This document shows, piece by piece, positions 8,598 to 38,816 of a stretch of 64,000 nt of DNA; the first letter of the stretch is position 1; each line of letters starts with the position of its first letter. The notes under the pieces are model-generated. The model did no database searches. It saw nothing but the letters and a program-made list of their open reading frames with translations, and was not told where the DNA came from. Source of the stretch: Spirosoma profusum (GTDB taxonomy: Bacteria; Bacteroidota; Bacteroidia; Cytophagales; Spirosomataceae); assembly GCF_014699005.1 (NCBI RefSeq), contig NZ_JACWZY010000037.1:1-64000 (forward strand), written 5' to 3'. Both the position numbers and the translations under genes were made by a program.

Positions 8598-8689
8598 TTT
8601 TTGTCATGCTGAGGCACGAAGCATCTTAAATTATCATGACCCAGAAGTAAGGACACTTTAAGATGCTTCGTGCCTCAGCATGACAAAAA
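8598..8689. repeat. Long palindrome, family A (GTCATGCTGAGG type)
   Basis: A perfect 33-bp inverted repeat: left arm 8598-8630 beginning TTTTTGTCATGCTGAGGC, right arm 8657-8689, with a 26-base loop. Relatives lie at 12867-12958 and 32926-33050. No coding capacity. The family resembles REP-like intergenic palindromes. Confidence 0.9.
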
Positions 8690-12854: not shown

Positions 12855-12866
12855 GTTTCTTGTCAT

Positions 12867-12958
12867 TTTTTGTCATTCTGAGGAACGAAGAATCTTAATG
12901 TTTCCCAACCTATACGTTTGGGTGCTTTAAGATTCTTCGTTCCTCAGAATGACAAAAA
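12867..12958. repeat. Long palindrome, family A
   Basis: A perfect 32-bp inverted repeat: left arm 12867-12898 beginning TTTTTGTCATTCTGAGGAAC, right arm 12927-12958. Compared with the copy at 8598 it has paired changes in both arms (GCTGAGGCACG versus TCTGAGGAACG), so pairing is kept. Confidence 0.9.
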
Positions 12959-12961
12959 ACT

Positions 12962-32925: not shown

Positions 32926-33050
32926 TTTTTTGTCATGCTGACCGGGCCGCCGGAGCGGGCACGAAGCATCTTAAGGTTTCCTCGCTTGATTGTCTGGGTG
33001 CTTTAAAATGCTTCGTGCCCGCTCCGGCGGCCCGGTCAGCATGACAAAAA
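32926..33050. repeat. Long palindrome, family A, enlarged
   Basis: Left arm about 32926-32974, right arm about 33002-33050, with one mismatch at the loop side. It has the family ends (GTCATGCTGA and GCACGAAGCATC) but an extra GC-rich segment, CCGGGCCGCCGGAGCGG, present in both arms as complements. It lies between the EPS operon and tgt; nothing else is visible in this 289-base spacer. Confidence 0.88.
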
Positions 33051-33091
33051 GAAACACTTTGTACTTTTTTTTTATTCGGTACGTTCTTGCC

Positions 33092-34222
33092 TCAAAGCCG
33101 CTGCATCAAACGGACAACCATTTCGGCCTTCCACGACACAAAATCACCTATTTCGATGTGCATACGAGCCTGCCGGACAAGCCACAGATAAAACGTTAAG
33201 TTGTGAAGGCTTGCTACCTGACCGCTCAGCAATTCTTCCGCCTTAAACAGATGGCGGAGATAAGATTTTGAGTAAAACGTACTGGCATAGCCGCCCAGAT
33301 TCGCGTCGATAGGACTGAAATCGCGGCTCCACTTTTCGTTTTTGATGTTAATAATGCCTTCCGTTGTAAACAGAATGCCGTGTCGGGCATTACGTGTCGG
33401 CATCACGCAGTCGAACATATCTACCCCTAATGCGATGGCTTCCAGAATGTTGGCAGGTGTGCCAACTCCCATCAGGTAACGAGGTTTATCGGCGGGTAAT
33501 AGGCCATTAACCAGTTCGATGGTCGTATACATATCTTCGGCGGGTTCGCCTACAGCCAGTCCACCAATGGCATTACCTTCTCGCTCTTTACTGGCGATGT
33601 ATTCGGCCGATTGTCGGCGTAAATCGGGATACGTACTGCCCTGTACAATCGGAAACAACGTTTGCCGATAGCCATAATGCCCCTCAGTTGCATCAAAACG
33701 ATTGATACATCGGTCGAGCCAGCGGTGAGTCATTTCCATCGATTGGCGGGCGTATCCGTATTCGCAGGGGTAAGGCGTGCATTCGTCGAACGCCATTATA
33801 ATATCGGCACCGATAATCCGCTGAATATCCATCACACCTTCAGGTGTAAAGATGTGTTTTGAGCCATCGATATGCGACTTGAACGTAACACCTTCCTCTT
33901 TAATCTTGCGCGTATCTGATAAGGAATAGACCTGATAACCACCTGAATCAGTCAGAATAGGCCGTTTCCATCCGTTAAATGCATGTAGACCACCCGCCTG
34001 ACGTAGCACATCGAGACCCGGCCGCAGATACAGGTGATACGTATTTCCCAGAATAATTTCGGCATTAATGTCGGTTTCGAGCTCGCGCTGGTGAACAGCT
34101 TTCACCGTTCCTGCCGTGCCGACGGGCATGAAGATTGGCGTTTGAATTGTCCCATGATCGGTAGTCAGAATTCCCGTTCGGGCTTTCGACTGCGTATCGT
34201 GGGCAGTAATCGAAAATGTCAT
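33092..34222 (-). CDS. tgt: tRNA-guanine transglycosylase
   Basis: Exchanges guanine-34 of Asp, Asn, His and Tyr tRNAs for preQ1 or queuine. Of 376 residues from the ATG at 34222, key motifs are LTDSGGYQVYSL near 90 (catalytic aspartate), IIMAFDECTPYP near 145, GGLAVGE near 218 and GVDMFDCVMPTRNARHG near 265. The region normally holding the CxCxxC...H zinc site reads DFSPIDANLGGYASTFY, so the cysteines are missing; from memory this is usual among Bacteroidota Tgt proteins. An extension to 34276 would cross the promoter region. The -7-like box ends 4 bases before the ATG, suggesting a leaderless transcript. Confidence 0.94.
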   Translation of the reverse strand: MTFSITAHDTQSKARTGILTTDHGTIQTPIFMPVGTAGTVKAVHQRELETDINAEIILGNTYHLYLRPGLDVLRQAGGLHAFNGWKRPILTDSGGYQVYSLSDTRKIKEEGVTFKSHIDGSKHIFTPEGVMDIQRIIGADIIMAFDECTPYPCEYGYARQSMEMTHRWLDRCINRFDATEGHYGYRQTLFPIVQGSTYPDLRRQSAEYIASKEREGNAIGGLAVGEPAEDMYTTIELVNGLLPADKPRYLMGVGTPANILEAIALGVDMFDCVMPTRNARHGILFTTEGIINIKNEKWSRDFSPIDANLGGYASTFYSKSYLRHLFKAEELLSGQVASLHNLTFYLWLVRQARMHIEIGDFVSWKAEMVVRLMQRL

Positions 34223-34226
34223 ATTG

Positions 34227-34331
34227 CAAAGATAAGGGGTAGGGGGCAGAGGATAGGTGCGTAGAGACTGAATCATGTATGAATGAGGCCAATTTGCCCT
34301 TTGCCCTCTGCTCCATGCACCCTATCTTTGC
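34227..34331. repeat. Palindrome related to family C with outward-facing -7 boxes
   Basis: Left arm from CAAAGATAAGGGGTAGGGGG (34227-), right arm ending GCACCCTATCTTTGC (to 34331). At both ends the arm finishes in TATCTTTGC reading outward, which is a perfect TAnnTTTG box for each of the divergent genes tgt and the GT2 gene. Confidence 0.7.
34300..34330 (+). promoter_or_regulatory. Predicted promoter of the GT2 gene (Bacteroidota type)
   Basis: TTTG at 34300-34303, 19 bases, then TATCTTTG at 34323-34330. This is a complete match to the phylum consensus TTTG-N19-TAnnTTTG. The GTG start follows at 34377. Confidence 0.7.
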
Positions 34332-34376
34332 CGCTTCAGTCAAAATCAGCGCATTAGCGGGTAAACTTTACGCTTT

Positions 34377-35570
34377 GTGATTACTACGTTACTGATCGCC
34401 TGGCTACTTGTGGTCAGTATTCAGCTTATTTATATTCTATTTATATATTCCCGAACGGCTTTCTATCGACAGCCGGAAATTATTGTCTCAGGTAATGAAA
34501 ACGGTACGTTAGCCGCTGGTGCTACGTTAGGAGTAACCATTGTGGTATGTGCCCGCAACGAACTGGAAAATCTAAAAGAGTTATTACCCCTGCTGGATGC
34601 CCAAGAGTACCCGAATTTTGACGTATTGGTGATGGATGATCGCTCTTCGGATGGCACACAGCAGTACCTTGATAGTGTCGTTACGCAGTTCCGATACGTT
34701 CGACACATGCGTATAGAAAAAGAACACGAGCACATTACGCCCAAAAAATATGCGCTGACCATTGCCCTCAAAAAAACAGCGAACCCGGTTGTGCTACTAA
34801 CCGACGCCGACTGTCGCCCAGAAACGAACTGCTGGCTGGCTGGGATGATTGCTCCATTGGCGCGGGCTGAAAAAGCCATTACGTTAGGTTTTTCCCCTTA
34901 TTATTATCAGCCGGGTTTTTTAAATCTGCTTATTCGCTCCGAAACGCTATTTACGGCGGTGCAGTATTTTTCATTGGCGTTGGCAAGCCGACCTTACATG
35001 GGGGTCGGGCGGAATCTGTCCTACCGAACTAACCTTTTTTTCGAAAACAAAGGTTTTTATTCACACATAAACGTAACGGGTGGCGATGATGACCTATTCA
35101 TCAACGAAGTCGCAACTGGACGTAACACCGCGATTTGCCTACATCCCGATACGTTCGTTTGGTCTGCGCCCAAAACAACCTGGTCCGAGTGGCGACAGCA
35201 GAAACATCGACACCTGCATGTAGGGAGGTATTATAAACCCGGAAATAAGATTCGACTGGCTTTTTTGGTAGGATCGCATCTGTTGTCATGGATATTTGCA
35301 CTGGCGGTTGGCGGGGTCGTCCTATATCACGAGTTAGAAGCTGTTGCATTCTCCCCAAATGAATGGCTACTTTTGCAACTTGGCACGGGCGTGTTTGTCT
35401 TCCGACTTCTTACCTTCTGGGGTGTTGTCGGACGTATCAGCTATCGGCTGGCTCATACTGTTCACTGGACATTCATGCCATTTATGGACGTAATACTGGC
35501 AATGTATTATGGACTGGCATCACTGAAAACACTTGTTATTCGCCCGAAAAAGCGGATATACTGGCGATAA
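34377..35570 (+). CDS. Membrane glycosyltransferase family 2
   Basis: A 397-residue protein with an N-terminal transmembrane helix (about 3-25), a GT-A domain and C-terminal helices (about 300-325, 335-355, 360-385). The GT2 signature is visible: VTIVVCARNELENLKELLPLL near 55, DDRSSDG near 90 (metal-binding DXD-like TDADC near 142) and GGDDDLFINEVA near 235, with QQKHRH near 275 in place of the QxxRW motif. It is expected to transfer sugars to a lipid or polymer at the inner membrane. It starts with GTG behind a consensus promoter, and its stop is 54 bases ahead of rsmG. Confidence 0.88.
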   Translation: MITTLLIAWLLVVSIQLIYILFIYSRTAFYRQPEIIVSGNENGTLAAGATLGVTIVVCARNELENLKELLPLLDAQEYPNFDVLVMDDRSSDGTQQYLDSVVTQFRYVRHMRIEKEHEHITPKKYALTIALKKTANPVVLLTDADCRPETNCWLAGMIAPLARAEKAITLGFSPYYYQPGFLNLLIRSETLFTAVQYFSLALASRPYMGVGRNLSYRTNLFFENKGFYSHINVTGGDDDLFINEVATGRNTAICLHPDTFVWSAPKTTWSEWRQQKHRHLHVGRYYKPGNKIRLAFLVGSHLLSWIFALAVGGVVLYHELEAVAFSPNEWLLLQLGTGVFVFRLLTFWGVVGRISYRLAHTVHWTFMPFMDVILAMYYGLASLKTLVIRPKKRIYWR

Positions 35571-35624
35571 ACGATAGGCAGATAATGCTAACTTTCATTT
35601 CATGTCGGGTAATTCTCCGAATTT

Positions 35625-36254
35625 ATGAATATTGACCTTATTTTAAATTATTTCCCAGATTTAACGTCAATTCAGAAAGAGCGTTTTGCCGCCCTCGATG
35701 GCCTCTATCGGGACTGGAATGCGAAAATTAACGTTGTTTCGCGGCAGGATATTGACGCCCTATACGAGAGGCATATTCTGCATTCGCTAGGTATCGCCAA
35801 GATCGTTTCGTTTAAGCCGGGTACCGAAATTCTGGATGTAGGGACGGGGGGCGGTTTTCCGGGAATCCCGCTGGCGATTCTTTTTCCGTTAGCCGATTTT
35901 CATTTGGTCGATAGCATTGGTAAGAAGATTAAAGTAGTACAGGAAGTCGCTGATGCGCTTGGGTTGACTAATGTGAAAGCTGAGCAAATTCGGGTTGAGC
36001 AGTTGAAGACAACGTACGATTTTGTGGTGAGTCGGGCCGTTACACGCCTGAAGCCGTTTTTAGGATGGGTACGTTACAAAATTCATAAAGCGGGCAACAA
36101 CGACCGCCCCAATGGTGTTTTATACCTAAAAGGTGGTGACCTAACTGAAGAGCTGGCCGAAGTACCTGATCGTTACCGTGTTTACGAACTCTCAGACTAT
36201 TTCGACGAGTCTTTTTTTGAAACGAAGAAAGTGATTTATATACCTAAAAAATAA
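35625..36254 (+). CDS. rsmG: 16S rRNA (guanine-527 N7) methyltransferase
   Basis: SAM-dependent methyltransferase for G527 of 16S rRNA. The 209 residues are typical. The N-terminal helical part contains DGLYRDWNAKINVVSRQDIDALYERHILHSL (about 25-56), the SAM-binding motif ILDVGTGGGFPGIPLAILFP is at about 67-86, and VVSRAVTRLKPFLGW near 128 is the conserved catalytic region. It is on the same strand as the GT2 gene. Its stop codon TAA falls at the first bases of the family D palindrome. Confidence 0.94.
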   Translation: MNIDLILNYFPDLTSIQKERFAALDGLYRDWNAKINVVSRQDIDALYERHILHSLGIAKIVSFKPGTEILDVGTGGGFPGIPLAILFPLADFHLVDSIGKKIKVVQEVADALGLTNVKAEQIRVEQLKTTYDFVVSRAVTRLKPFLGWVRYKIHKAGNNDRPNGVLYLKGGDLTEELAEVPDRYRVYELSDYFDESFFETKKVIYIPKK

Positions 36255-37017: not shown

Positions 37018-38454
37018 TTAGCGAGCCTGCTTTTTTACCTTCTGCTGATTGCGCTCTCGGATCGCCCTCTGCTCCTGCATCAGTCGTTGAATTTCGCTTT
37101 CATCCTCGGGTGTTTCTTGACTAGTCATTACCTCATTTTCAAAGAAGTGTTTTGCGTTTGTCTGCTGACGTTGGATGTTTGCTCCTTCTTTTGTAGGCTG
37201 TACTTGCTCAACCAGCTCATCTTCTGAGTGCATAAACTCTTTCAACTTTTCCCGCTGCCGTTTCTTCTCAGGGCTTAGGCTCGGTTGGCTTGTATCCTCT
37301 CTACTGATCGAAAATTCCTCCGCTACCCTTTGTTGTCTCTGTCGGCTCTCGTCACTCTGTGGCTCTGCGCTAATGTCTTGTTTTATTTCTGTTTCATTCT
37401 CAACTGATTGTGGTTCATTTTCATCAGTTGTATTCTGTTCTACTTTGCCGGTTAACTCGTCCGCGTTATTGAAATATTCCCCTGCCCGTATTTTTTTCTT
37501 TTCAAGGCCATTACTTTCTTCGGTTGGCTTCGTCATATCTTGGCTTGAATCAAGAAAGCTTTCAGCCATGTCTTCCATTCTTTTGCGGCTCTGTGCCTCT
37601 GTGCTCTCTACCGTCGTTTCCAGTTTATTATCCCAGAAGACACTAGCCGTTCGTTTCGCCTTCTCCTGATCGCATTGCTGTCCGGCATGACTGGCCTCAC
37701 TGCTCCCTTCCTGCTTTTGCCGCATCAATTCGATGGCCTCTTTTTCAGGGATCAGCTTTTCATGGCGCAAACGCTGGCGAACCTCTTTAATGCGTACTCC
37801 TTTCAGCTGGCGCACGAGGTCAAATGACCGGCCATTTTCGTCTACCACCATGAAGGGATAACGCGGGACGCCTTCGGCCAACAGATAGCCATTGTCGTGA
37901 ACGGCCTTCACAAAGTCTCTGCCGGTTTTGGTCTGGTTCCAAAGGTTTGTGAGGGCTTCTTTCAGTTCAGGACGGTGTTGATTGCGGTGGGGCGTTGGCG
38001 TATGTTCAAAGACGCGCTCCATCTCCTTACGGGCGCGATCCTGCGCCAACCGACTGAAACTATCTGAAATCACCTTGCCCCGTTTATGGTCGTAGCGTTC
38101 CCAGACCACATGCGCGTGTGTCCGCCCCTTCTTGGTGTGGAGGACAATCACGCGCCGTTGCTCCTGCAACCCTAACTCTTTACCCAGAATGTCAGCCGCT
38201 TTCAGCCAGTCTTTTTGTGACATTTTCCGGTCTTCGCTGTAGGCCGGATTAATCTGGGCGTGATACAGCCCCTTCTGGCTTTTAGTCAGTTCGGAGGTCA
38301 GCGACATACTTTGTAGAGTCTGATGCAGGTAATCAGCCTTGGCGTTTAAGCGTCCAGCCACCTCTACGATCTGGACACGTTCATTGGCCTCACCAGACGT
38401 GAGGTACTGCGCTAGTTGCTTGCCATTGCCCCGTGTGCCTCCTCTGATGACCAT
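37018..38454 (-). CDS. MobP-type relaxase/mobilization nuclease
   Basis: A 478-residue relaxase expected to nick the element's oriT and stay bound to the 5' end. The nuclease domain (about 1-160) includes the histidine motif RTHAHVVWERYD (His113 and His115) and a conserved FEH-like helix; the segment DFVKAVHDNGYLLAEGVPRYPFMVVDENGRSFDLVRQLKG (about 185-225) is common in MobP/MobA-like relaxases. From residue 265 the tail is charged and contains about six degenerate repeats of an A-x-x-F plus Thr/Pro/Arg pattern. Its start overlaps the stop of the MobC-like gene by one base. Most similar to plasmid-borne proteobacterial relaxases in style. Confidence 0.85.
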   Translation of the reverse strand: MVIRGGTRGNGKQLAQYLTSGEANERVQIVEVAGRLNAKADYLHQTLQSMSLTSELTKSQKGLYHAQINPAYSEDRKMSQKDWLKAADILGKELGLQEQRRVIVLHTKKGRTHAHVVWERYDHKRGKVISDSFSRLAQDRARKEMERVFEHTPTPHRNQHRPELKEALTNLWNQTKTGRDFVKAVHDNGYLLAEGVPRYPFMVVDENGRSFDLVRQLKGVRIKEVRQRLRHEKLIPEKEAIELMRQKQEGSSEASHAGQQCDQEKAKRTASVFWDNKLETTVESTEAQSRKRMEDMAESFLDSSQDMTKPTEESNGLEKKKIRAGEYFNNADELTGKVEQNTTDENEPQSVENETEIKQDISAEPQSDESRQRQQRVAEEFSISREDTSQPSLSPEKKRQREKLKEFMHSEDELVEQVQPTKEGANIQRQQTNAKHFFENEVMTSQETPEDESEIQRLMQEQRAIRERNQQKVKKQAR

Positions 38455-38816
38455 TAGCTTAGAAGTTTAAGAACCTGAGCTGTCAGCGCATCCAACCCTT
38501 GCATAGCTTGGTTGATGTCCTCAGGATCAATACCGTGCCCTGTCTCATCACGGCTGTTGAGGTGACGAGCAATCTGGTTGACGTTGCTGCCGATCTTGCC
38601 AAGCTCCGCCATGACATTGAGCAGCAATTCACGCTCCGGTGTCGGCACACGGCGCAACGGTTGCGTTGCCGCCATCGTCCGCAAGCGCATGAAGTCGCTA
38701 GGCGTGTAACCGTTATCTGCTGCCATCTGCCAGATACGGAGTTTTTCGGCAGACGTGACACGAACGCGAATGGTCAAATCGCGTTTGTCCGCACCGTCCT
38801 TTTGGGGTCGTGCCAT
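38454..38816 (-). CDS. MobC-like relaxosome accessory protein
   Basis: A 120-residue DNA-binding protein with an N-terminal ribbon-helix-helix-like region (LTIRVRVTSAEKLRIWQMAADNG, about 14-36) and the MobC signature LGKIGSNVNQIARHLN (about 72-87). MobC proteins help open oriT for the relaxase. The gene precedes the relaxase and touches it (the stop and start share a base), forming a mobC-mobP operon. No Shine-Dalgarno motif is evident; the upstream 295-base spacer has the palindromes expected of an oriT. Confidence 0.85.
   Translation of the reverse strand: MARPQKDGADKRDLTIRVRVTSAEKLRIWQMAADNGYTPSDFMRLRTMAATQPLRRVPTPERELLLNVMAELGKIGSNVNQIARHLNSRDETGHGIDPEDINQAMQGLDALTAQVLKLLS

Follow-up and report, generated by a model that had tools for sequence, protein, structure and literature searches.

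Divergent promoter boxes bound a species-variable, partly palindromic spacer next to a predicted leaderless tgt gene in Spirosoma

Introduction

Promoters of the primary sigma factor of Bacteroidota (sigma-ABfr/sigma-A) carry the box TAnnTTTG at -7. This box has been refined to TAHHTTTG, with no G at the two inner places (PMC6847099). In F. johnsoniae, a distance of 4 or 5 nt from the box to the transcription start is common, and boxes so placed were taken as the probable promoters (PMC6847099); in F. psychrophilum, the box was placed at -12 to -5 (PMC9723704). Published studies put leaderless messengers at 5.5% in F. psychrophilum (PMC9723704), 5' UTRs of <10 nt at 3.7% in B. thetaiotaomicron (PMC7366714), and leaders of >10 nt at 87% in F. 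johnsoniae (PMC6847099). One large survey of leaderless genes sought only Pribnow-like boxes, i.e., a promoter box other than that of Bacteroidota; it considered an undercount in Bacteroidetes possible and doubted that a high percentage had been missed (PMC3160421).

The locus described here, between tgt and a family 2 glycosyltransferase (GT2) gene of Spirosoma profusum, has the same box as the Bacteroidota primary-sigma promoter, with 4 nt to the inferred start. It differs in that TTTG at -33 is rare and that the upstream DNA is pyrimidine-rich, unlike that of 56 promoters from four congeners. As in leaderless bacterial messengers, the start codon of tgt would stand at the 5' end, which is predicted from the position of the box. 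The palindromes at such loci are dispersed and extragenic, as are REP sequences, GTAG-tagged palindromes, and REPINs. However, the palindrome in S. profusum has longer arms (GTAG stems measure 6-13 bp; PMC3733652), a loop of tens of nucleotides, and no GTAG tag: neither GTAG nor CGTC occurs at its ends, which are GCAAAGATA and TATCTTTGC. Its own genome holds no near-identical copy, the next-best BLAST match having an E-value of 0.07 over 25 query letters. In the titles and abstract openings of the open-licence literature searched, there was no report of tgt as a leaderless gene or of these Spirosoma palindromes.

Results

An imperfect palindrome with an outward-reading box at either end

The window (the whole 64,000-nt stretch of DNA that was analysed) comes from a genome of 8.73 Mb in 81 contigs. 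Based on the list of open reading frames and Pfam matches, tgt and the GT2 gene are divergently oriented. The first encodes a queuine tRNA-ribosyltransferase of 376 aa (33092-34222, minus strand; PF01702, 515 bits), and the second begins with GTG (34377-35570, plus strand; PF00535, 60 bits, and PF13641, 38 bits). No known RNA family was found in 33000-36000 up to an E-value of 1.

Between the genes, TATCTTTGC reads outward at 34226-34234 (minus) and at 34323-34331 (plus). The window has three copies where 0.69 are expected, and 4 of 100 shuffles reach three. The -7 boxes themselves, TATCTTTG, lie at 34227-34234 on the minus strand (tgt) and 34323-34330 on the plus strand (GT2), and both agree with TAnnTTTG/TAHHTTTG. 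The original prediction of divergent -7 boxes is borne out among congeners: the tgt box is present at all 34 loci, and the GT2 box (TANNTTTG) at 30 of the 31 loci with an adjoining GT2 gene, the remaining one (L045) having TATCTTTA, which we accepted as a box.

The inverted repeat that ends in these boxes (left arm 34226-34252, right arm 34305-34331) is imperfect, with 27-nt arms that are 81% complementary and 52 nt between them. As a single strand it folds with -19.6 kcal/mol (z -2.4), and 2 of 200 shuffles fold equally well. The 88-nt spacer between the boxes (34235-34322) has a purine-rich left half and a pyrimidine-rich right half, contains CCCTNTG words, and varies by species. Taken without the boxes, it does not exceed its dinucleotide shuffles in palindrome strength (p 0.14 and 0.16 in two runs), so much of the strength of the palindrome is that of the two boxes themselves. 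The predicted palindrome is thus present in the window, but it does not hold up as a conserved regulatory object, because its sequence varies from species to species while the boxes stay.

The tgt start and a predicted leaderless messenger

In the window, 4 nt separate the tgt box from the ATG at 34222-34220 (minus strand). We compared tgt loci from 34 of 36 genomes of the genus, leaving out G180, which gave no match, and G015, in which tgt is in three pieces (overlapping matches at C1 4139231-4140356, the gene being broken by frameshifts or sequencing errors). TAHHTTTG precedes the tgt ATG at all 34 loci, and the number of nucleotides between box and ATG (k) is 4 in 29, 3 in three, and 5 in two; these counts are not independent, given that congeners share kinship. 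The start codon is ATG in all 34.

An in-frame ATG at 34276 gives a longer tgt reading frame, which automatic annotation may pick. This extension (34223-34276) is not conserved: homology among congeners begins at 34222, with MTFSI, and the DNA that precedes it varies among them, which makes 34222 the likely start of tgt. Given a box 4 nt from the ATG and the published distance of 4-5 nt from box to start, the first transcribed base of tgt would be the A of its AUG (34222). The prediction, from sequence, that the tgt messenger is leaderless or nearly so is well supported. The original prediction had raised this as a possibility, which gains support from a box that is kept close to the ATG in 34 of 34 congeners, from the recurrence of the short spacing in the family, and from the box-to-start distance in F. 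johnsoniae. A promoter box at a short, near-fixed distance from the start codon is kept not only among these relatives but also in a second clade.

Outside the genus, we sampled 36 sequences of the family from 30 genera, chosen for spread from 150 genomes. The box is at k=4 in seven of them (6 of 30 genera) and, with one changed base, in two more; 27 of the 36 thus have no exact or one-change box at this distance. The others have a box at k 17-33 (12 sequences), at k 62-118 (three), or none within 120 nt (12), and none has one at k 5-16. In a Tgt protein tree of 70 rows, the predicted leaderless cases fall in two places. The first comprises the genus rows and g32; rows from g17, g22, and g43 that have a leader or lack the box are placed there too, and the forks are weakly resolved. 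The second is a clade of its own with support of 99/82, made up of seven rows, of which two have a changed box. Short spacing may have been gained twice or lost several times.

A sample of 80 named Bacteroidota records, from which records very close to the window may be missing, has k=4 in two cases, i.e., Emticicia agri and a Spirosoma record that is not independent, because the 40 nt shown for it are those of L044. A further 18 records have no box within 120 nt, and five have no ATG near the aligned start. The best Tgt match among the 80 is a Spirosoma MAG, with 90% identity. In eight records (L213, L221, L231, L232, L235, L251, L256, and L257; Tenacibaculum, Lutibacter, Polaribacter, and one Flavobacteriaceae MAG) the box lies at k=6, for which a tgt leader of 1-2 nt is predicted.

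We also asked how common such spacing is in the genus at large, counting boxes outside other genes and before an in-frame ATG over 1.18 Mb of sequence from four congeners, with a crude gene caller that found 227 genes in 400 kb and extends starts. Ten boxes have k 3-5 (four of them tgt), two have k 6-15, and 41 have k 16-44. Six of the eight non-tgt boxes in k 3-15 fall at k 3-5 (p 0.003 under uniform spread), but four scrambled motifs likewise lean to k 3-5, with 3, 2, 2, and 2 of 15, 8, 15, and 21 matches. The unfiltered genome-wide pattern TATCTTTGN{0,30}ATG has no overall excess (103 matches, and 99 with the control pattern reversed). Support for a general leaderless class across the genus is therefore weak, and the case for tgt rests on its own conservation.

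The GT2 promoter and the -33 element

The interval from the GT2 box to the start codon (34331-34376, plus strand) holds the predicted transcription start, at 34335 or 34336, which would leave a leader of 41-42 nt. The original prediction called this promoter perfect, on the grounds of a TTTG lying 19 nt ahead of the box. That TTTG is there (34300-34303, plus strand), inside a CCCTTTG word of which it is probably a mere part. As a conserved -33 element of GT2 we rejected it, since only 2 of 22 congeneric promoters, the window included, have TTTG at 19 nt, and the count is the same over 19-21 nt. For tgt, TTTG at 19-21 nt occurs in 2 of 24 congeneric promoters and not in the window, in agreement with the earlier remark that no -33 element was seen for tgt. 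A looser motif, TTG at 19-21 nt, is somewhat commoner here than elsewhere (6 of 22 for GT2 and 6 of 24 for tgt vs. 6 of 56 among the promoters of called genes), so that some species may have a weak -33 element. The -33 motif is likewise weak in F. johnsoniae (PMC6847099).

The feature that the locus has in common across species is a pyrimidine-rich stretch ahead of each box. The 30 nt upstream of the box have a pyrimidine fraction of 0.77 for tgt (24 loci) and 0.79 for GT2 (22 loci), against 0.54 for the 56 comparison promoters, which are those of called genes of the four congeners and may include the GT2 genes of those genomes. The excess over these 56 is significant for both genes (p ~3e-8 for tgt and ~3e-9 for GT2).

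About half of the spacers pair within species, and some are replaced between near relatives

In 31 of the 34 congeners (L047, L051, and L148 were left out) the GT2 gene adjoins tgt, and the spacers of these loci range from 28 to 312 nt. Their arms pair better with their own partners (mean 27.3) than with the arms of other species (14.6), a difference that none of 20,000 permutations reached; a smaller run with 22 loci gave 25.5 and 14.6, with none of 5000 permutations reaching the observed value. Against shuffles that keep the dinucleotides of each half, 15 of the 31 spacers are significantly palindromic at p<=0.01 and 17 at 0.05, leaving 16 short of p 0.01.

In 20 congener pairs we compared the identity of the GT2 leader with that of the spacer, using a shuffled control. 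The interval from the GT2 box to the start is 96-100% identical in six of these pairs and falls to 41% in others. The spacer may be mostly or partly kept along with the leader (leader 100% and spacer 85% in L039/L143, 96% and 87% in L042/L043, and 98% and 68% in L038/L041). In other pairs it is not: L039/L049 combine a 98% leader with a 52% spacer (45% for shuffled sequence), L036/L146 have 96% and 39% (shuffled 43%), and L141/L146 have 92% and 38% (shuffled 44%). Between some near relatives, then, the spacer has been replaced as a block, with the boxes and the GT2 leader staying in place.

Possible relatives of the spacers in intergenic DNA

In the sampled genomes, 11 of the 31 spacers (L036, L038, L041, L045, L046, L048, L049, L141, L142, L144, and L147) match intergenic DNA elsewhere with scores above 36, the highest shuffled-query control, and the other 20 have nothing above this control in the sampled intergenic DNA. 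A single palindromic tandem site, G013:292650, is matched by four of them (L144 with a score of 94, L147 with 69, L046 with 59, and L142 with 54). Other matches lead from L036 to another such site, G013:92973 (95), from L048 to G016:107168 (43), and from L049 to position 2298 of the window (40).

The spacer of the window is a weaker case. Its best non-self match in the sampled intergenic DNA is a palindrome of CCCTNTG/CANAGGG words at 2319-2401, a possible relative that does not belong to the promoter, with a score of 29, and the shuffled spacer scores 30 and 25. The link to this palindrome and to a similar intergenic one at 2708-2790 (limits of both by eye) thus rests on the common CCCTNTG word. 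CCCTTTGCCCTCTGC with <=3 mismatches matches nine times in the window, twice inside the spacer, where 1.06 matches are expected, and none of 100 shuffles has as many. The word family is degenerate, as the strict pattern CCCTNTGCCCTNTGCCC has just two matches genome-wide (control 0). The window spacer is perhaps an eroded copy of such a repeat, although the sequence evidence for this is weak.

Gene ends in four sampled genomes are rich in long palindromes. When each gene start is padded by 90 nt, because the caller extends starts, these palindromes occur in 45 of 76 convergent, 108 of 452 tandem, and seven of 97 divergent non-tgt intergenic regions, and shuffles have none. Of the 31 tgt-GT2 regions, 16 carry a long palindrome, far more often than the seven of 97 other divergent regions (Fisher 3e-7).

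Discussion

We consider the following explanation, taken as a whole, to be probable: tgt and the GT2 gene have divergent primary-sigma promoters, tgt is leaderless, and the spacer between the two boxes is replaced between species, partly by palindromic repeats. RNA polymerase carrying the primary sigma factor would start tgt at its own start codon, the ribosome would translate the leaderless AUG, and the rightward promoter would give GT2 its leader of 41-42 nt. The spacer would need a loose composition only, so that repeats could land and decay there. It would be swapped in part for members of a dispersed pool of intergenic palindromic repeats (in the window, with a purine-rich left and a pyrimidine-rich right arm), which may move by insertion or by one palindrome being copied into another, the former spacer being lost. 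The boxes would then stand at the ends of the palindrome because they stay in place while the DNA between them is exchanged. On this view, the palindrome is an exchangeable repeat, in the window perhaps an eroded one, rather than a conserved regulatory palindrome. That the spacer is cassette-like, with palindromic-repeat families from a genus-wide pool replacing one another and the promoter boxes as exact edges, we propose only tentatively, as a possibility rather than an expectation. In that case, a changeable repeat would be framed by two promoters, that of a leaderless housekeeping gene and that of the gene next to it.

If the box next to the ATG were coincidental or otherwise used, tgt would have a normal leader from a promoter farther upstream, and this would suit the minority standing of leaderless messengers in the phylum (F. 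psychrophilum, B. thetaiotaomicron, and F. johnsoniae), the missing TTTG at -33 of the window tgt, and the want of a clear leaderless class across the genus. We nonetheless find it quite unlikely, as the box is kept at 3-5 nt in 34 of 34 congeners while the DNA upstream changes by species, and the 36 other family sequences have a distance of exactly 4 or of at least 17. That the palindrome is an operator, with a single dimeric regulator on both arms that co-regulates tgt and GT2, appears highly improbable. Its symmetry around two promoters and the recurrence of palindromes at the tgt-GT2 locus (16 of 31) would be natural for such a site, but the arms are unlike between species (27.3 own vs. 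14.6 cross), spacers of 28-312 nt are unrelated in some near relatives, and at p 0.01 the palindrome is missing from 16 of 31 spacers. We rejected a conserved-operator palindrome because the arms are not common to different species.

Arms that match within a species and differ between species are also what is seen in quasipalindromes corrected by replication template switching, a process that has been proposed to build and keep hairpins (PMC8794818) and by which the two arms would change together. Sister species, however, do not bear this out: in six of seven close pairs there was no sign of one lineage having matching changes in its two arms, and arms pair about equally across and within species (e.g., 34/32 within vs. 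32/34 across, and 42/58 vs. 58/43). The lone exception, L144/L147, pairs somewhat better within (35/58) than across (30/48). Pairing across as well as within sister species argues against upkeep by template switching, which went unsupported in six of the seven pairs and which we consider unlikely, and for replacement. There might also be no repeat at all, if opposed promoters each favour a pyrimidine tract and the inverted tracts merely look palindromic. The half-wise dinucleotide shuffles, which 15 of 31 spacers beat, speak against pyrimidine tracts as a full account; moreover, the L146 spacer is palindromic without being pyrimidine-rich (0.50/0.47), and 11 spacers closely match other intergenic sites. 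On the other side are the pyrimidine fractions of 0.77/0.79 (vs. 0.54), high even in species without a palindrome, and the spacer of the window itself, which is within its shuffles; pyrimidine tracts alone may suffice for that species, though in general we find the idea rather doubtful.

For a phylum without Shine-Dalgarno sequences, tgt offers a clear comparative case of a gene predicted to be leaderless. The replacement of a promoter spacer as a block, partly by palindromic repeats, with the boxes and even the next leader nearly identical, opens the spread of abundant intergenic palindromes to direct study.

Other palindromes and neighbouring genes

Several observations were made along the way. 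Purine/pyrimidine palindromes also precede tgt in the neighbour genera g22 and g32 (L087, L101, and L102, with scores of 63, 45, and 45); L087, from g22, has no box within 120 nt of the tgt ATG. In the window, the palindromes at 2319-2401 and 2708-2790 lie in the gaps between an enolase-like gene (by eye), a small open reading frame that Pfam does not match, and the gene of a low-molecular-weight phosphatase; both palindromes follow GTAG and touch a start codon. REP and GTAG-tagged repeats have a Y1 transposase (RAYT) as partner; the genome has five Y1_Tnp matches on four contigs, not tied to the palindromes described here, that may include such a RAYT.

A different family consists of long, near-perfect TTTTTGTCATNCTGA...GAAGNATCTTAA palindromes at gene ends (8598-8689, 12866-12959, and 32927-33050 in the window, and many sites in G000:C11). 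These have paired changes inside each arm, and their half-sites number six in the window against 0.08 expected. Several further word families, such as GGATTTAACGG, CAGAGATGCACGG, AAAGAGTGAAAG, and CTTCGACAAGCTCAGGGTGAC, occur in the same manner. Another divergent palindrome, at 165246-165429 of G000:C11, is bounded on either side by TACGTTTG and has a TTTG ~20 nt inside on the right; the inner G of TACGTTTG is disfavoured in the refined box consensus. Finally, ~1.4 kb past the GT2 gene, a MobA/VirD2-type relaxase gene and NikA/MobC-like mobilisation genes (37018-38816) suggest a mobile element.
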